Source of the DNA: Anaerolineae bacterium
Lineage (GTDB): Bacteria > Chloroflexota > Anaerolineae > JAAYZQ01
Assembly (NCBI GenBank): GCA_016926595.1
Contig: JAFGOG010000451.1
Location: forward strand, 1 to 7,554
DNA: 7,554 nt
Direction: 5' to 3'
The notes beneath the pieces were generated by a model, which saw only the letters and a program-made list of their open reading frames with translations, was not told the origin of the DNA and did no database searches. Numbering within the stretch: position 1 is the first letter of the stretch; each line of letters begins with the position of its first letter. This document shows positions 181 through 7,554 of this stretch, piece after piece. The translations under genes and the position numbers were made by a program.

Positions 181-3078
181 TCAGCGCCCCGCGGGCGCCG
201 TGAAGCGGAGGAGTAGGTCGTCGATCGCCTCCGCTTCCTTTCTCATGCCCGCGCTTCGTCGTAGAGTCGACAGCCTGCGCAAATCGAACTCCGGCCAGGG
301 CCCGCCGAACATCAGGATGTCCCGTAAGGCCTGTCGCTGAAACGCCTCTGAAGCGTAGCCCCGCGACAGCACGCGGAGAGTCAGCTCCATGCGAACCAGT
401 GGTCCAGGGTCATCGGCAACGGCCGCCAGCCACTTTTTTCTGCCAGTAACGTCGTGGGTGATCAAAGCACCCAACGCGGCGGCGCGTATACCTGGATCGC
501 GGTGACTCGCAAAGGCTTGCAAGCGAGGCACCAGCGACGCGTCTGCTGCCCGTCGCGCGAGCATACGCAGTGCACTGATCACGACCAGGTGATTGGGATG
601 CGATAGCGCTGCGTCGAGCCCTGCCTTTTGCCCTGCATCGTGCGGCATACGTCGTCGCTTGAGAAGCGCGATCGCCTCGACCCAGGCCCTTGTCGAGTTC
701 GCGTCACTCGCGCCCCATCCGCACAGCTGCTCGATGACCCAGGTCTCGTTATGCGTTGAGTGGCAGTTGAGGCAAGCACTTCGCGTCTCGAGCAGCGTAG
801 CTTCGGCAGGGCGCGGAATCGAGATTCCGTGATCCGTGAAGCTCAGGTCGTAGCCGGAATCGTTACGAAATGGTGTGCTAGGCATATGGCAATCGACACA
901 ACGCACCCGGCTGGTCGCCGCAGCATGGACCTTACGCGCCGGACGGCAGTGCTCACCCCTGTCGTGACACCCACTGCAGTTGGCGTCGTCGATTGCCTCT
1001 TTGGCCTGTGAGCCTACGCTATGCGCAGAATGACAGTGCGTGCAAGTCGCCTTTCCTACCAGATGACACGGGCTACTGGAGAATGCGGCCCACTGGTGCG
1101 CAAAGGCCCATCCTCGACCGTCAGCGAGCACACGGGGATCTTCGAGTCCCACCGGGAGCTGGCGAGGCTGGAGCGTCCTAGGATCCCACACACCCGGATC
1201 CCGGTTCAGACCGTGGCAACGTCGACAGCTCTCTTCCAGGCCAGGGGACCGGGACCGGGCGTCGGCATAGGGATCGCTGTCCGGAGCTCGCCCGCGCAGA
1301 GTCTCGTGATAGCGGACATGCGCGCGACCCGGGCCATGACAGGCTTCGCAGCCAACGCCGAATTCGATCGCTCGCTGTCCACCCTGTACACTATGAAGAA
1401 AAGTGCTGTGACAGCCGACGCACCTTGCACGGCCCAGATTGATGGAACCGTCGGCAGACGGGGTGAGATGTTTGCCATAATAGTCCGCGATCTGCTGTAG
1501 CTTCCCGCTCACCCAGAGGTTGGGCGATAGGCTCTGCCGACCGTTGTTATAGATCCAGAGCTGTGCCTGTTGGGTGCGGCCCGTGCCCAGGATCATGGTC
1601 TTGCTGCCAGAAGGCGCTGGTTTATCGAACCGAACAACGGCACTACTATCGGTGGCCCATGCCATAGTACGAGCGTGGGCCGAATGCTTCCACGCGGCGA
1701 ATGATTCTGCGTGACAGTCGCCGCAATGCTGGCTTCGTACGAAGGCAGCCGGAACGATCCAGGACGGAACAGTGTCCGGTACCGTAAAGTCGCGACTGCT
1801 AACCAGGGGAAGGTCGCCTTGGTAGGCTTCGCGTGGCAGCGCGCGGGTACCACCTTCTGCGGAGCAAGTAAACCGATACAATACCGTGGTGTCTTCAGCT
1901 CCTCGACTGACCAGGGAGATCGGGCCGCTGAGCTCGCGATCGCAAAACGGCTGCGCTAGATACGCGCCAGCCAACGCCCTTATCGCGCCGTAGGCTCCTG
2001 AGGGCAGTACCGCCCACGACCGCTCAGCCAGATATGATATCAGTATTCGTTCGTGCCAACCATCGTAAACCTGACCCAGCTGCTGCCCTTCGGCATTTCG
2101 GGCGGAAGCGGTGACCCGAGCCACGGACGACCGCCGCGGACTGCGTGGCGGGTCGAATCCAATGTCGCCCAGGAGACGATCGGCGGCGGGGCTCTGAGAG
2201 GTGTTGATGAAGTGGCTGGCCGTCGATGATGCACTCGTCGCGATCAACATCAGCGAGAGGGCGGGGAGCGCTTGTAGAGGTACGGGCCGCGGACAAGTAC
2301 TTCCAGGGGCGCGAGCCACCATGAGAAACGGCGGGCGTGATACGAATATCACACCGGCCAGCAGCAGGAGCCCCGCTGTCGTGTTCGGCGCCTCGAACAG
2401 CAACAGCGACATCATCACTATATGCAGACCGAACGCGAGCCAGCGATACCGCGGTAACAGGGAAAGCATTGGCGGGAGGGCCATCAACGCGTGCTGGGTA
2501 GGTGGCAACGTCCACCCAAGCACGTTTGCATGCCATAGTCGCCAATCCACCAAGAGCAGCGCGATCTGAATCCGGAACAGCTGGCTGGGTAACGTTGGAG
2601 CATTCAGGGCCGCCGTGGCTGCGCGACCAATCCTGGCCCGATTCCTTATAATATCGGTTACGCGAAGCGAACGCCCAAGCGGCAGCACACATGCCCAAAG
2701 GCACATGATGGACACTATATGATCGGCGAGGTGGCTGAAGTAGGGTACGGCGTGGCGCGTCGTGACGGCGGCGCCGAGCAGCAAAAGAGCCGAGATCCGT
2801 GGCAACAGGCCGAGTGCGAGGGATATGCCAGCGATCGTAGCGAGCACCAGCACCGGTTCAAAAGCCACTGTGAACCACGACTTCGGAAGATCCGATTCGC
2901 CGAGTACCGGCCCTAATTGCCGCGCCCGTTCGATAAAATGCACAGCCAGAAGTGCACAGAGGCCCAGGCGAAAAATCTCTTCTGGGATCACGCGGCACCG
3001 ACAGCCGTGCTCTGCCCAAGAGCCACACCCGGCGGTCGGGTGCGCTTCACTCGATGCAGTTGGCGTCGCAGTAGCCAA
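181..3078 (-). CDS. HTTM membrane domain fused to octaheme c-type cytochrome with C-terminal HEAT-like repeats
   Basis: A 965-residue fusion protein. Residues about 33-285 form a polytopic membrane region with 7-9 hydrophobic segments. The stretch LADHIVSIMCLWACVLPLGR (118-136 region) matches the conserved helix of HTTM/vitamin K-dependent gamma-carboxylase-like proteins. Residues about 300-440 are a heme-free extracytoplasmic linker domain. Residues 446-775 are a cytochrome c554-type multiheme domain with eight CxxCH sites at 452, 553, 577, 618, 679, 701, 727 and 769. It opens with the family-typical CGDCHAESFAAWKHSAHAR and ends with a DHGISIPRP motif. Residues about 815-915 are helical HEAT-like repeats. 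The hemes would be attached in the periplasm, so the cytochrome faces outward and the HTTM part sits in the inner membrane. The role is probably quinone-linked or periplasmic electron transfer; the partner is unknown. The start used is TTG, three bases after the MBOAT stop, with only a weak GGGG upstream. GTG at 2991 (residue 30), just before the first membrane helix, is an alternative, also without a clear SD. Confidence 0.9.
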   Translation of the reverse strand: MATATPTASSEAHPTAGCGSWAEHGCRCRVIPEEIFRLGLCALLAVHFIERARQLGPVLGESDLPKSWFTVAFEPVLVLATIAGISLALGLLPRISALLLLGAAVTTRHAVPYFSHLADHIVSIMCLWACVLPLGRSLRVTDIIRNRARIGRAATAALNAPTLPSQLFRIQIALLLVDWRLWHANVLGWTLPPTQHALMALPPMLSLLPRYRWLAFGLHIVMMSLLLFEAPNTTAGLLLLAGVIFVSRPPFLMVARAPGSTCPRPVPLQALPALSLMLIATSASSTASHFINTSQSPAADRLLGDIGFDPPRSPRRSSVARVTASARNAEGQQLGQVYDGWHERILISYLAERSWAVLPSGAYGAIRALAGAYLAQPFCDRELSGPISLVSRGAEDTTVLYRFTCSAEGGTRALPREAYQGDLPLVSSRDFTVPDTVPSWIVPAAFVRSQHCGDCHAESFAAWKHSAHARTMAWATDSSAVVRFDKPAPSGSKTMILGTGRTQQAQLWIYNNGRQSLSPNLWVSGKLQQIADYYGKHLTPSADGSINLGRARCVGCHSTFLHSVQGGQRAIEFGVGCEACHGPGRAHVRYHETLRGRAPDSDPYADARSRSPGLEESCRRCHGLNRDPGVWDPRTLQPRQLPVGLEDPRVLADGRGWAFAHQWAAFSSSPCHLVGKATCTHCHSAHSVGSQAKEAIDDANCSGCHDRGEHCRPARKVHAAATSRVRCVDCHMPSTPFRNDSGYDLSFTDHGISIPRPAEATLLETRSACLNCHSTHNETWVIEQLCGWGASDANSTRAWVEAIALLKRRRMPHDAGQKAGLDAALSHPNHLVVISALRMLARRAADASLVPRLQAFASHRDPGIRAAALGALITHDVTGRKKWLAAVADDPGPLVRMELTLRVLSRGYASEAFQRQALRDILMFGGPWPEFDLRRLSTLRRSAGMRKEAEAIDDLLLRFTAPAGR

Positions 3079-3081
3079 GAC

Positions 3082-4374
3082 TCACGCCCCGGTTGCTACG
3101 AGCAATGACAATATATTCGAAAACCAAGACGACAGCAGTGGATCGATCAAGTTCCGGAGTGTCAACCAGGCCATAGCCCAACCTACCTGCGCAAAGACCA
3201 CCCAGCTGGCTACGACGCTGAGTTGCTCCAACAACTGCGGCCGCGCATGAGATCCACGCCGGAAAACCCGTGAGTACTCCGTCAAACCAGACCAAGCCAC
3301 AAATAGTAAGGCGAATATTAAAAACGCGAAGGTATAGGCCATCGAGGCTGGTTGCTTGGGATCGGTCAGGTGGGCCAGGTAGTGGTAGATATCGTGCAGG
3401 ACACCGACGCTGACGAAGGTGACGACGATGGCGAGTGCAGTCCGGGCAGCTCGATGTCCGCGGAGCCGCCGGCTGACGTGGAAAGAGATGGGGAAGTAGA
3501 GGTAGCGCATAGCCCACTGGCCCACCCATAGGTTCCAGCGCCGCCAAAAGTCCATCGGGCTAACTGCGAGAAACGGCATCCGGTAGCACTCGGGTGTCGA
3601 GTATCCGATTAACCGCATAGCGCCAATTTGCACACTCGCGACGCCGCTGAGTGCGAAATACAATCCGAGGGCAGCGCCGCCGAAATAGAACACGGTCGAG
3701 AGGTAGCTGACGACCGTCAGTGGCAACAGAACTGGTGGCTCGGGCATCACGAGATGGATACCATCGAAGATAAGCGCGCGGACAATCCAGGCTGTCACAC
3801 CCTGAGCGATGCGCGAGAGGCCGACAAGATCTAGGCGCGGGGCTGACACCCGCTTACTGCGTTGGGGATAGACCAGAACCGGATCGACGACGATGAAAAA
3901 GACGGCTTGGGTAAGCCCCGGGGGCTTCTTGCTACTGGCAGCCTCGATACAGTAGCTATAGGACGAAAGTGTCATGTACCAGCCCATGAAGACGACGACA
4001 TAGGCCCATGCTCGGTTCGTAACCCATACTGCGGGAACGATCATGAAAAGCGTGCAACACGCGACAAAGAGGCCACCGGTGGTGAGGTTTCCGTTGCGCA
4101 GCAGGGAAGGGAGCCTCGAGGTTGCTGCTGCAGCGACGATAAAGTAGAGCAACCCCGCCAGTACCGGCACGTGCCCTGTCCACCTGTCGCCAAGCAGGGC
4201 TGCCGCCGCCAGGATGGCGCTGTAGGATGTGATCGCCACGCCGCGTATGCGTTGGTTCGAGTCGCGGGTAAAGCATGCGTATGCCACGAACGGCAGCAGT
4301 AGACTGCCGAGCTGCCAAAACGACTGGCGTATCGGTTCTCGTAACACCTCTATCCAGAAGGCCGCTTGTGGCAT
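3082..4374 (-). CDS. MBOAT-family membrane-bound O-acyltransferase
   Basis: A 430-residue integral membrane protein with roughly ten hydrophobic segments. MBOAT enzymes move acyl groups to hydroxyls on sugars, lipids or proteins within the membrane. The family block SPMDFWRRWNLWVGQW (272-287), followed by LYFPI, is clear. The invariant histidine of the family is His327 in VGVLHDIYH. A VYPQR segment (168-172) followed by helix LSRIAQGV resembles the usual PYP..F..P region. The length is a little below the usual 450-500 residues. The frame stays open upstream to 4515, but ATG 4374 is preferred: it overlaps the protease stop in TGATG and has GGGAGGG just before it, and the extension would be hydrophilic. 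No DltD/AlgJ-like partner is present in the window, so the acyl acceptor is unknown. The operon context suggests an envelope substrate. Confidence 0.9.
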   Translation of the reverse strand: MPQAAFWIEVLREPIRQSFWQLGSLLLPFVAYACFTRDSNQRIRGVAITSYSAILAAAALLGDRWTGHVPVLAGLLYFIVAAAATSRLPSLLRNGNLTTGGLFVACCTLFMIVPAVWVTNRAWAYVVVFMGWYMTLSSYSYCIEAASSKKPPGLTQAVFFIVVDPVLVYPQRSKRVSAPRLDLVGLSRIAQGVTAWIVRALIFDGIHLVMPEPPVLLPLTVVSYLSTVFYFGGAALGLYFALSGVASVQIGAMRLIGYSTPECYRMPFLAVSPMDFWRRWNLWVGQWAMRYLYFPISFHVSRRLRGHRAARTALAIVVTFVSVGVLHDIYHYLAHLTDPKQPASMAYTFAFLIFALLFVAWSGLTEYSRVFRRGSHARPQLLEQLSVVASWVVFAQVGWAMAWLTLRNLIDPLLSSWFSNILSLLVATGA

Positions 4375-5459
4375 CAACCCTCCCGCGACTTTCCCATCGC
4401 GCGGCGCAACAAAAGCGGGAGCCAAGCACCGAACATGCTCCGCGGCAGATGCGCGCGGTCGTGCTTGCGACAATGCCATAAGAGTAAAACGACCAACATT
4501 AATGATAGCCACCACGCACCGCTTGTTTCAGGACCTGTTCTGACGTACACGCCGCAGCCGGCCGAATAGGGCGCGCCACAACTCTTGGAGCGAGCCCCGG
4601 TTGTGGCGAGCGGCTCACCAGCTCTATCGAGCCCCGGTGCCTGGCAGCTTGGACCGGGACGCCAGCGCCCTTGGTCATCAAAGCAAGGGGTAACATCGTA
4701 GCCGGAGTCAGACTCGAGCCACGTCACCATCTTCGAGATATCCGTGTACCAACCAACCCCGCATTCGCCGACAATGCCCGATGATAGCAAACCGAGCATT
4801 CTCCAATCTGGCTCCGACGCCCCTGGTTCGCTCACGTCGATGAACGCCGGGCCGCTCGAGTCCCCGCGACAGGTGCCGATTTCCATATCACCGATCACGA
4901 TCTCCCTACCCATGCGCACTACCTCTGTCCGGGCGACGCGTTTGATTCCTGGCGTGTCGTCCTCGAGTGAGGCAAATCCAAAGCCGAGAATGGTCACCTC
5001 AGTGCCGGGCTGTACCGAAGCGCGCTCGCATCCGACGCTAGGCGGTATCGCTGCGACATCGCGAAGCGGCTCGGTCAGCTCGCAGTATGCAAAGTCATTG
5101 CCTCGGCCAATGGCCGAGTCTGGATAGACCCGGCACCGCTTGATGTCCACGTGCCGATACCTCGAAGGTTCGCGCAATGCGACGATCCCTGAATCCGGGT
5201 CCATCTCGACATCGAGCGCGCTGCCGAGCCAGGCGCGTTCATGCTCTTCGCCGCAATGCCCAGCGTACACGAGCAGGCGCGGGTGTACGAGCGTCGCACC
5301 ACAGCCGCTTTCCAACCAGACCACACCCGGCCATGCCGACTGAGTGACCTCCTTCCCTCCCAGCAGCGGCTCCTGGCGCCGTGCAACCTCGACGCTCCGA
5401 ACGCTACAACCGGAGAGTACAAGCGGCCAAACCAGTTTCAGGATCTCAAGCCACCTCAT
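4374..5459 (-). CDS. Exported trypsin-like serine protease (S1 family) with lipobox and MYXO-CTERM-like tail
   Basis: A 361-residue protein from ATG 5459. The N-terminus is a short lipoprotein signal with lipobox LSGC (lipidated Cys18). The trypsin fold follows: His68 in VYAGHC, Asp122 in NDFAYCEL and Ser201 in CRGDSSGPAF. The catalytic triad is therefore complete, although GDSGGP reads GDSSGP. Several cysteines suggest disulfides. After the catalytic domain comes a Cys/Gly stretch (CGAPYSAGCG, 294-303), a hydrophobic segment (315-330) and CRKHDR. This is the layout of MYXO-CTERM surface-sorting signals, but about 27 more residues follow, including a second short hydrophobic stretch. An in-frame GTG at 5510 would add 17 residues but lies upstream of the -10 box, so ATG 5459 is preferred. 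It is the first gene of the operon with the MBOAT and HTTM-cytochrome genes. The substrate is unknown. Confidence 0.87.
   Translation of the reverse strand: MRWLEILKLVWPLVLSGCSVRSVEVARRQEPLLGGKEVTQSAWPGVVWLESGCGATLVHPRLLVYAGHCGEEHERAWLGSALDVEMDPDSGIVALREPSRYRHVDIKRCRVYPDSAIGRGNDFAYCELTEPLRDVAAIPPSVGCERASVQPGTEVTILGFGFASLEDDTPGIKRVARTEVVRMGREIVIGDMEIGTCRGDSSGPAFIDVSEPGASEPDWRMLGLLSSGIVGECGVGWYTDISKMVTWLESDSGYDVTPCFDDQGRWRPGPSCQAPGLDRAGEPLATTGARSKSCGAPYSAGCGVYVRTGPETSGAWWLSLMLVVLLLWHCRKHDRAHLPRSMFGAWLPLLLRRAMGKSREG
4378..4384 (-). promoter_or_regulatory. Shine-Dalgarno deciding the MBOAT start
   Basis: Minus-strand GGGAGGG lies 3 nt before ATG 4374, inside the last codons of the protease gene (encoding Arg-Glu-Gly). 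The protease stop TGA shares its final A with the ATG. This arrangement favours termination-reinitiation and sets the MBOAT start at 4374, not at the upstream in-frame start at 4515. Confidence 0.75.
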
Positions 5460-5462
5460 GCC

Positions 5463-5486
5463 ACTCAATACTAGTTCAGGTTGAGT
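5463..5486. repeat. Short inverted repeat between -10 box and start codon (possible operator)
   Basis: ACTCAA (5463-5468) and TTGAGT (5481-5486) are perfect 6-bp inverted arms separated by 12 bp. The spacer also contains the palindrome ACTAGT (5470-5475). The element lies over the expected transcription start and 5' leader of the protease operon, where a repressor site or a small leader hairpin could act. Arms this short can arise by chance. Confidence 0.3.
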
Positions 5487-5514
5487 ATTATAGGACGGGG
5501 CAAAGGCCACGCAA
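5487..5514 (-). promoter_or_regulatory. Putative sigma70-type promoter of the protease-MBOAT-cytochrome operon
   Basis: On the minus strand a perfect TATAAT lies at 5492-5487. A weak -35 (TTGCGT, 5514-5509, three matches to TTGACA) sits 16 bp upstream. Transcription would start near 5480, leaving a leader of about 20 nt before ATG 5459. It lies in the only sizeable intergenic gap among the genes, just where a new operon would begin. The -10 is strong and the -35 poor. Confidence 0.5.
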
Positions 5515-5580: not shown

Positions 5581-6246
5581 TCAACGCGTCGGTTCATCTT
5601 CATCCTCTGGGGAGAGAGGTAGTCTGCCGGGGGCAAAGTAGGCAACGATGCTCGCGCCGCTGCTCGTGACCTCGGGCTTGCCCACCCTAACGTCGAAGTC
5701 CGAATTTCGGGGCATACGGGCCATGCTAAAGATCTGTTCGATGTTTTCAAAGGCGAAGCGCACTCGGCAGAGCGTTCGCCTGCACGACACATCCTGAGCT
5801 CGTGGACGGATATCAAGTTTGTCGAATGTATCCAGTAAATAGCGCTCCACAGCGATAGTGTGTTGCGAGTTCACCGACTCATTCAACCAGTGCTCATACA
5901 GAGGTTTCAAGTCCCCCGAGATCTCCGAACCACTTGCCTGCCGGAGGTCGATCGCAGTGCTGGGCGGTGACACTGATAGCTTGCGTTGCCCTGCCTGCTC
6001 ATGATCCGCTTCGGCTGCAGCGGACAAAGACAGCTGGGGCGCGGTCTCGGACGGCTCGGATGGCACGTTATCGGGTTTCCAGGAGGGGGCTTGCGGCAAG
6101 TCCGGTTCGATCGATGCATAAGAGTCCCACTCCGAAGCGGCCGGACACTCGAGCAGTTTCCACATAAAAAAGAGCGTCCATAATACGATCAATGATCCGC
6201 CAATGAGTAGAAAAACACGCACCAGACTAGTACCTATTCGTTGCAT
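5581..6246 (-). CDS. Membrane-anchored extracytoplasmic protein with SCRRTLCR motif, function unknown
   Basis: A 221-residue protein I cannot assign to a named family. Residues 8-28 are one hydrophobic helix after a short basic N-terminus (MQRIGTSLVR), giving an N-in, C-out anchor. Residues 35-110 are a disordered Pro/Ser/Glu-rich linker. Residues 115-210 form a compact domain with DVSCRRTLCRVRF (Cys155 and Cys160), which probably form a disulfide outside the cytoplasm. The last residues are very acidic (PEDEDEPTR). Small proteins with a C-x4-C-R strand like this are, in my recollection, common among uncharacterised myxobacterial envelope proteins. The chosen ATG 6246 overlaps the preceding lipoprotein gene by 13 nt, which suggests coupled translation. 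An in-frame ATG at 6336 would add 30 residues before the helix and has no better ribosome site. It is the last gene before the intergenic gap. Confidence 0.75.
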   Translation of the reverse strand: MQRIGTSLVRVFLLIGGSLIVLWTLFFMWKLLECPAASEWDSYASIEPDLPQAPSWKPDNVPSEPSETAPQLSLSAAAEADHEQAGQRKLSVSPPSTAIDLRQASGSEISGDLKPLYEHWLNESVNSQHTIAVERYLLDTFDKLDIRPRAQDVSCRRTLCRVRFAFENIEQIFSMARMPRNSDFDVRVGKPEVTSSGASIVAYFAPGRLPLSPEDEDEPTR

Positions 6247-7046
6247 TTTGTCTGGGCAGAACAGAGTCCAAGATCGGTTGCTCGCTGACCGCCCAACGGG
6301 TTGGCTTCTCCCACCTGCTGAAAAATCTCCCGGCATGGACCGGGCTCAGTCGGGGTGCCAACACATTCGAATGGGTCCAGGTCTGCCTCGTCGCAACAAC
6401 TGGCAATCGCCAGACAGCCAAAGTCACCGAGGCAGGCCCCAAAGTCGCCCGGGCACTCGCGACACAGGCACTCATTACGCTCGGTAACCGCGTCGATGCT
6501 CTCGAGCGCAGCTCTACAATCGTCCGCGGTCTCCGCAGTCTCGACCCCCAGAAGCCCACTGCAAGTTGGACAGGCGGCAACACGCCGTAGGACATCGGTA
6601 AAGCCGCTCGGCTCGCAGATCGGCTCTGGCTGCTGTTCCTGGAAGCACTTCACGCACCGGTCGTCCACCTCTGACTGGCAATCCTCGACCACAGTGGGAA
6701 TATCCGTCGCCTCCAGGCATTCGCAAACGCTTTGCTTTTCTTCCGGACTAGCCTCGAGTTGCTTGAGTATCTGAATTTCAATTGGAATCTCATCATCGTT
6801 TGGAATCTCACCATCGTTGCTCGAATCTCTGCCGGTCGGGCTGACAGCTGCTGTGCTCACACCTGCATCCTTGGCAGACCTCGAGCCCCTATCAGCCTTT
6901 CCAGCGCTAGGGCTGGTATCCGGCTCGTTAGCCGACGAGTCGTAGCACGCGGTCAGGGCTATAACCACCCCTAACGCAGACGTTTGAACAAGCTTCCTAG
7001 CAATAGTTACGATGCTCGCCACTACTCTATTGAACACATGCGTCAA
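6234..7046 (-). CDS. Cys-rich lipoprotein, function unknown
   Basis: A 270-residue protein. The N-terminus has basic residues, a hydrophobic stretch and lipobox LTAC, so Cys34 is the likely lipidation site. Residues 35-95 are a disordered Asp/Ser/Pro linker containing a duplicated hexapeptide (GEIPND/DEIPIE type). Residues 105-270 hold 20 cysteines, many as CxC or CxxC (CEC 108-110, CVKC 131-134, CPTC 159-162, CLCREC 193-198, CC 217-218). The even number and exported location suggest a disulfide-knitted surface domain; metal binding is less likely but not excluded. There are no CxxCH heme sites. The start is TTG 7046: GGAGG lies 6 nt upstream, the best ribosome site in the window. The gene overlaps the end of the upstream Cys-rich gene by 20 nt and the next gene by 13 nt. 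Confidence 0.83.
   Translation of the reverse strand: MTHVFNRVVASIVTIARKLVQTSALGVVIALTACYDSSANEPDTSPSAGKADRGSRSAKDAGVSTAAVSPTGRDSSNDGEIPNDDEIPIEIQILKQLEASPEEKQSVCECLEATDIPTVVEDCQSEVDDRCVKCFQEQQPEPICEPSGFTDVLRRVAACPTCSGLLGVETAETADDCRAALESIDAVTERNECLCRECPGDFGACLGDFGCLAIASCCDEADLDPFECVGTPTEPGPCREIFQQVGEANPLGGQRATDLGLCSAQTKCNE
6782..6817. repeat. Two-copy 18-bp tandem duplication in the lipoprotein linker
   Basis: Units 6782-6799 and 6800-6817 differ at one base. They encode two consecutive acidic hexapeptides (NDGEIP, NDDEIP) just before the Cys-rich domain of the lipoprotein. The 18-bp period equals that of the larger hexapeptide array in the upstream neighbour. Confidence 0.8.
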
Positions 7047-7554
7047 AACACGCCTCCGTCACGCATTTCTGATATGCCTCCCATTCGTCCTTACAGATCG
7101 AAGGTCCTTCCGGCAGGCACTTTGCCGTACAGTCACACATGTCGTCCGGGTATACTTCATCTGGACAGTCGACGCCACCGTTACACGTGCAATGTCGTCG
7201 GATGCAGTGGTTTATGTCTGGGCAGGTTTCGGACCACACACACCTGGACTCGAGATGAATGCATATAAAGCAAGGACGCTCCGATAGTTCTCCCGCGGAT
7301 TCACGTTCCGAGATCTTCCACAACTCCAGAAAGCGGTCACAGATGCGGTTGGAGGGAGCCTGAGCACTGTCCGGTCGCTCGCTGCTGTCCGGTCGCTCAC
7401 TGCTATCCGGCTGCTCGCTGCTGTCCGGTCGCTCGCTGCTGTCTGGTTGCTCACTGCTATCCGGCCGCTCACTGCTGTCTGGTCTCTCACTGCTGTCTGG
7501 TCTCTCACTGCTGTCTGGTCTCTCACTGCTGTCTGGTCTCTCACTGCTGTCTGG
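7027..7554 (-). CDS. Partial Cys-rich protein with SSE[R/Q]PD hexapeptide repeats (5' end beyond window)
   Basis: The frame is open from the right edge to TAG at 7027, giving 175 visible residues; the true start is outside the window. Visible residues 1-60 are ten units of PDSSE[R/Q], a hydrophilic, probably disordered stalk. A stretch PDSAQAPSNRICDRFLELWK follows, then SER-containing remnants (ISERES, LSERPC). The final region of about 80 residues brings the total to 16 cysteines, in patterns such as CTC, CDC and CxxxxC, ending FDACVQ. A shorter start at TTG 7323 is possible but unlikely: base changes between repeat units are nearly all silent in this frame (AGT/AGC, GAC/GAT, CCA/CCG), so the repeats are translated as part of this protein. 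The gene overlaps the Cys-rich lipoprotein gene by 20 nt. A repeat stalk plus a disulfide-rich domain suggests an exported or surface protein; the signal peptide would be off the window. Confidence 0.75.
   Translation of the reverse strand, partial: PDSSERPDSSERPDSSERPDSSERPDSSERPDSSEQPDSSERPDSSEQPDSSERPDSSERPDSAQAPSNRICDRFLELWKISERESAGELSERPCFICIHLESRCVWSETCPDINHCIRRHCTCNGGVDCPDEVYPDDMCDCTAKCLPEGPSICKDEWEAYQKCVTEACFDACVQ
7053..7057 (-). promoter_or_regulatory. Strong Shine-Dalgarno GGAGG deciding a TTG start
   Basis: Minus-strand GGAGG is separated by 6 nt (CGTGTT) from TTG 7046. It lies within the coding end of the upstream gene. It supports TTG as the lipoprotein start over the in-frame GTG codons at 7037 and 7022, both of which would be too far from it. 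Confidence 0.75.
7375..7554. repeat. Tandem array of ten 18-bp units, continuing past the right edge
   Basis: The unit on the plus strand is TCTCTCACTGCTGTCTGG. The four units nearest the right edge (7483-7554) are identical. The six to the left carry substitutions, mostly third-position silent changes plus Arg/Gln alternation at one codon. It is a coding minisatellite encoding SSE[R/Q]PD. Units adjoin directly with no spacers. Confidence 0.95.

Follow-up and report, generated by a model that had tools for sequence, protein, structure and literature searches.

A divergent HTTM membrane bundle fused to a predicted octaheme c-type cytochrome in a single Anaerolineae gene

Introduction

In gamma-carboxylase (GGCX), Lys218 is the base that initiates the reaction and His160 is essential, according to excerpts of PMC9146348. 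OcwA, which belongs with cytochrome c554 and NrfA to one superfamily of multiheme cytochromes, is described in excerpts of PMC6703420 as a cell-surface reductase that carries nine hemes, has open-site hemes and reduces nitrite slowly. Here we describe a gene that joins the two kinds of protein. It lies at positions 181..3078 on the minus strand of a 7,554-nucleotide stretch (the window) of contig JAFGOG010000451.1 from an Anaerolineae bacterium, and it encodes an HTTM-type membrane bundle followed by an octaheme cytochrome domain. Both families are known, and their combination is new. We give about an even chance to the reading in which the product is an octaheme cytochrome anchored to the inner membrane by an inactive HTTM bundle, with electrons possibly drawn from the quinol pool. 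To our knowledge, it is an open question what most bacterial HTTM proteins do, and likewise the very large family of octaheme cytochromes with HEAT or TPR repeats; as a natural fusion, this gene hints that a heme electron chain can have the carboxylase fold as a partner or as one of its parts.

Results and Discussion

The N-terminus is a divergent HTTM module

The fusion gene is one unbroken open frame of 965 codons that starts at TTG 3078, with an alternative start at GTG 2991, where the protein predicted from the same contig (P0001, 936 residues) begins. From N- to C-terminus, the protein consists of a polytopic region, eight CxxCH motifs and HEAT-like helices. The open frame, the motif count and Pfam confirmed this architecture, which an initial annotation had read from the DNA alone.

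Profile comparison, a predicted model and Foldseek placed a membrane bundle of the HTTM/gamma-carboxylase type at residues 29-293 (2200..2994, minus strand). A profile of 65 HTTM proteins scored 42.5 against the window protein, while the highest scores were 23.3 in 40 block-shuffled controls and 16.9 in 40 fully shuffled ones. Alignment by hhalign with four Myxococcota HTTM proteins, three of which match PF05090 above cut-off, gave E=1.9e-6 and a probability of 89.7% over window residues 34-177 only; the stretch directly similar to HTTM proteins by profile spans residues 76-176 (2551..2853, minus strand). With the predicted model as the query, GGCX chains (9bvq, 9bvk and others) took Foldseek ranks 1-16, and the bundle was modelled in the GGCX fold, not in an unrelated membrane fold. 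These results indicated that the N-terminus is a divergent HTTM module whose homology is supported by both profile comparison and fold match, as the initial annotation had proposed; the profile scores exceeded those of all 80 shuffles.

Pfam and NCBIfam returned no family match for the N-terminal 438 residues even at E<=10, PF05090 included, so that the HTTM part of the expected domain set was missing while its cytochrome and HEAT parts were recovered (see below). The SdpB model of NCBIfam (TIGR04033) did not match the window protein, and a homologue search with the N-terminus alone found none of 8000 scored candidates at E<=1. Bacterial HTTM proteins (PF05090), including HTTM-DCC1 fusions and SdpB relatives, thus have a membrane bundle that is homologous at the profile level, whereas the window protein falls below all curated cut-offs, lacks a DCC1 match and carries a heme domain instead. 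A combined full-length alignment (A6) misplaced HTTM sequences into the heme region and was not used.

The octaheme domain belongs to the c554/OcwA/NrfA superfamily

The octaheme c-type cytochrome domain occupies residues 447-781 (736..1740, minus strand). Its eight motifs, all on the minus strand, are CGDCH at residue 452 (1711..1725), CVGCH at 553 (1408..1422), CEACH at 577 (1336..1350), CRRCH at 618 (1213..1227), CTHCH at 679 (1030..1044), CSGCH at 701 (964..978), CVDCH at 727 (886..900) and CLNCH at 769 (760..774). They stand in the order conserved in the octaheme c554/OcwA-type family, whose profile the domain also matched. Pfam Cytochrome_C554 scored 26.9 bits (cut-off 20.8), and by structure and profile the domain grouped with OcwA, cytochrome c554, MccA and NrfA; single-sequence matches were weak. 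On these sequence and model comparisons, the heme part is assigned to the cytochrome c554/OcwA/NrfA superfamily as a predicted c-type cytochrome, and the c554-type domain of the initial annotation was borne out. The fold and motifs are common to OcwA (6i5b), cytochrome c554 (1bvb), MccA (4rkm) and the NrfA family. In contrast to the OcwA described in PMC6703420, the window protein has eight CxxCH motifs, and none of the matched OcwA, c554, MccA or NrfA chains is described as joined to a membrane bundle.

CxxCK, the catalytic heme motif of most NrfA, was not found in the 965 residues; some NrfA lack it too, so its absence alone does not exclude NrfA. Five histidines outside the motifs were invariant across 34 sequences (all rows with a letter at the position) and all five are intact in the window protein. 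A sixth is kept in 30 of the 34 rows, and the window protein has Arg715 in its place. Not every heme need therefore be ligated by two histidines, and a reactive heme site in the octaheme domain is possible.

Behind the hemes, a helical repeat extends over about residues 800-961, and within it HEAT_2 matched residues 823-898 (385..612, minus strand). The match scored 27.2 bits on the whole protein, just under the cut-off of 27.7, and 29.3 bits, over the cut-off, on the C-terminal piece; together with the helical repeat fold, it identified the region as HEAT repeats.

A membrane bundle in place of the short N-terminus of octaheme relatives

Of 4538 candidates in a search with residues 440-800, 1603 reached E<=1e-3, and the best 120 of the 1603, P0001 itself among them, were compared. 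The closest among the matches listed (P0003-P0005) were about 30% identical (29-31%) and had the same eight motifs and no membrane bundle; P0004 is a fragment that begins after heme motif 1. P0003, P0005 and their relatives resemble the window protein in the ordered CxxCH motifs, the invariant histidines and a helical-repeat C-terminus that can be aligned with its HEAT region. They differ from it at the N-terminus, which is short and signal- or lipobox-like where the window protein is polytopic. In all but one of the 121 proteins compared, heme 1 was preceded by at most 117 residues; the exception was P0001. A loose lipobox pattern preceded heme 1 in 24 of 41 distinct octaheme frames from Myxococcota loci. 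The simplest reading is an exchange of N-termini, in which the HTTM bundle would stand where the relatives have a short signal or lipoprotein N-terminus.

The catalytic lysine of gamma-carboxylase is lost

The places of Lys218 and His160 were located by counting along the GGCX chain, in an alignment made in two steps via HTTM proteins; titles of PDB entries among the GGCX structure matches name a K217A/K218A mutant. Opposite Lys218, alignment A4 places His183 of the window protein (2530..2532, minus strand), and alignment A5 aligns this stretch differently. Since K66 is the sole lysine in residues 1-440, no lysine is available at the Lys218 place, whatever the local alignment. Besides the window protein, 30 of 34 HTTM rows carry lysine there (alignment A5, by eye). 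The loss also occurs elsewhere, in second copies of tandem HTTM pairs that carry arginine (L086, L120). In these tandem gene pairs (L086/L087 and L120), one copy has the Lys218 equivalent and the other arginine, as though each pair combined a working subunit with an inactive one. His160 is opposite His116 (2731..2733, minus strand) in the same two-step alignment, and its equivalent seems to be retained.

The lost catalytic lysine, a feature absent from the initial annotation, makes quinone chemistry of the carboxylase (vitamin K) type unlikely for the HTTM part. The proposal that this part oxidizes a quinol as gamma-carboxylase does was therefore not supported. GGCX further differs from the window protein in having neither an octaheme cytochrome nor HEAT repeats.

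A related alternative is that the carboxylase fold was re-tooled as a quinol dehydrogenase: menaquinol would bind at the vitamin K site, His183 and His116 would serve as acid-base groups in place of Lys218, and electrons would pass into the covalently joined octaheme chain. We regard this as rather unlikely. If true, the bundle would be a new entry point from quinol to the periplasm, unrelated to NrfH/CymA or NrfD.

Alternatively, the HTTM remnant may do no more than tether the protein to the membrane and take no part in redox or quinone chemistry, as suggested by the loss of the lysine, by a gap in alignment A4 that shortens one helix region relative to other HTTM proteins, and by the simple lipid anchors of many relatives. 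An eight-helix bundle would be a costly tether, however, and the fold and His116 appear to be retained; we find a purely passive role doubtful.

In the reading that we favour, the bundle is a degenerate vitamin K carboxylase fold, with the fold supported and the catalytic lysine lost, and would keep the c554/OcwA-type heme domain, together with the HEAT scaffold, at the periplasmic surface of the inner membrane. The heme chain might receive electrons close to the membrane, either from the pool of quinol or by way of a quinol dehydrogenase that docks to the HTTM part; their destination might be an acceptor in the periplasm or, within the octaheme domain, an open-site heme. A path from membrane to hemes is possible; both the link to quinol and the identity of the last acceptor are speculative. 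If the quinol link is true, the protein would represent a new bacterial way of taking electrons out of the membrane; if it is false, the bundle would still be an example of a pseudo-enzyme of the carboxylase fold put to new use as an anchor.

Topology and genome distribution

The lumenal position of the domain that follows the bundle in GGCX agrees with a periplasmic heme domain. In the window protein, a small alpha/beta link domain follows at residues 320-405 (1864..2121, minus strand). It aligned loosely with the GGCX domain, its possible counterpart, in the predicted model, at a root-mean-square deviation of 5.6-7.6 A in most rows that reach it, and had no support by sequence. A second model, which covered residues 249-965 and was built without HTTM proteins, left most of 311-443 below 50 in the predicted local distance difference test. 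An SdpA-like tail at residues 255-440 was considered and rejected, as hhalign scored 10.1 when shuffles had a mean of 11.3 and a maximum of 15.0.

Several observations weigh against an inactive bundle that anchors periplasmic hemes and receives quinol electrons. The hhalign test found no sequence similarity between residues 255-440 and the tails of other HTTM proteins. The model has an even number of long helices before the link domain, eight in all (33-60, 68-88, 93-110, 117-131, 163-190, which is broken, 209-225, 231-247 and 267-293), with low confidence from about residue 181 on. If the N-terminus is inside, an even number would leave the hemes on the cytoplasmic side, and hemes of the c type are not attached there. 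Loop 136-162 is arginine-rich and should be inside. The missing crossing could be a weak segment near 190-206, where A4 has a deletion with respect to other HTTM proteins; it would need to span the membrane for the hemes to be periplasmic. There was also no evidence of quinone binding, and 17 of the 41 octaheme frames mentioned above had no lipobox pattern match. In 377 Myxococcota genomes, HTTM was found in 172 and octaheme proteins in 103 (E<=1e-30), and the two occurred together in 53 genomes where 47 were expected, which is not significant (p=0.17); this count takes the genome labels of the two scans as the same genomes. In the loci examined, HTTM frames and octaheme genes were never neighbours, and the fusion is carried by one contig only. 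Finally, the neighbouring MBOAT and protease genes suggest a role in modifying the envelope and not one in respiration.

No second fusion was found in 92 HTTM frames, 84 and 57 octaheme frames and the 120 relatives examined. The 92 HTTM frames (repeats included) came from 77 loci (L083-L159), a part of the HTTM matches made up of 30 listed loci, 7 earlier ones and 40 regions selected because their frames were long; none of the HTTM frames, nor any other frame of at least 150 residues there, had at least three CxxCH. Conversely, the loci of the frames with at least six CxxCH (84 in L001-L082, 57 in L160-L209) held no HTTM frame. Among 50 further octaheme genomes (50 of 80 loci, none titled Myxococcota), 8 had an HTTM match; the matching frames, 366-619 residues long, are too short for both parts. 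A scan of genome contigs with the whole protein gave 13 pattern matches and no relative, and full-text literature searches, with subscription papers and preprints outside their scope, returned no paper on an HTTM-cytochrome fusion. In keeping with the initial annotation, to which no characterised protein of this exact architecture was known, the frames and relatives searched gave no other example.

The separate, unlinked halves in the relatives examined, which the initial annotation had named as a sign against a genuine fusion, leave room for an assembly artefact or a one-off fusion. A metagenomic chimera, or a one-off fusion without function, would fit a single contig and a single cluster member, and the codon usage of the two halves differed slightly more than random (distance 0.197, reached by 22 of 500 permutations); across the remaining five pairings of N half, C half, MBOAT and protease, the distance was 0.157-0.205. 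Against an assembly error, the halves are joined in frame at a domain boundary, GC content is 0.61-0.62 along the whole gene and codon-position GC has no abrupt break. The eight heme motifs and five invariant histidines are intact, as expected under selection. We judge a chimera or functionless fusion decidedly unlikely.

Gene neighbourhood and HTTM proteins with other partners

Just upstream of the fusion lies a gene for an MBOAT-family O-acyltransferase (3082..4374, minus strand; chosen start ATG 4374, frame listed from GTG 4515), whose stop is three bases from the fusion TTG. It is preceded by a gene for a trypsin-like protease with a C-terminal hydrophobic segment (4374..5510, minus strand), whose TGA overlaps the ATG at 4374. 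The fusion is the last gene of this same-strand run, and from the spacing we infer that the three genes are coupled.

This arrangement bears on another explanation, in which a membrane-located protein, lipid or glycan would be the substrate that the HTTM part modifies, the hemes would act as a source or sink of electrons, and protease and MBOAT would belong to the same pathway. The apparent retention of His116 is consistent with it, as are other HTTM proteins. A DCC1-like thiol-disulfide oxidoreductase domain was present in three of the four Myxococcota HTTM proteins scanned, a possible clue to the reducing power of HTTM proteins; such fusions show that linkage to a redox partner within one chain is a theme of the group, and they keep redox-coupled readings alive. 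Some HTTM proteins also match the SdpB family model (TIGR04033) below cut-off, and in linaridin clusters an HTTM protein is assumed to act in maturation by an unclear mechanism, according to excerpts of PMC9927463. The absence of the catalytic lysine speaks against envelope modification, as does the absence, already noted, of HTTM frames beside octaheme genes. MBOAT relatives were found in 227 of 282 genomes, and in the best-matching one (G259, three loci) the contigs concerned held no HTTM or multi-CxxCH frame. Overall, redox-driven envelope modification seems improbable.

In the Myxococcota HTTM proteins of L101, L102 and L112, the DCC1-like domain directly follows the bundle and is followed by a further hydrophobic segment and a tail. 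A single CxxCH in several HTTM proteins was considered as a heme site and rejected, as it lies in the DCC1-like thiol oxidoreductase in both proteins scanned (L101, L102). The second HTTM protein of L087 (4157-6535, plus strand) continues in the same frame into a region that is aspartyl-protease-like by eye; Pfam gives HTTM only.

The protease (4374-5510) has an apparent His-Asp-Ser triad by eye and ends in a hydrophobic segment and basic tail. We take this C-terminus to resemble MYXO-CTERM anchors; NCBIfam gave no match. Two overlapping genes on the minus strand precede the protease, MBOAT and fusion genes. One (6234-7046) encodes a Cys-rich protein; the other runs from a probable ATG at 6246 to 5581 and encodes a small protein with a single hydrophobic segment. 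No family of Pfam (at E<=1) or of NCBIfam (at E<=10) matched either protein. At 7367-7554 there is an 18-bp tandem repeat of 10.4 copies, a six-residue unit if translated, within which the contig ends.
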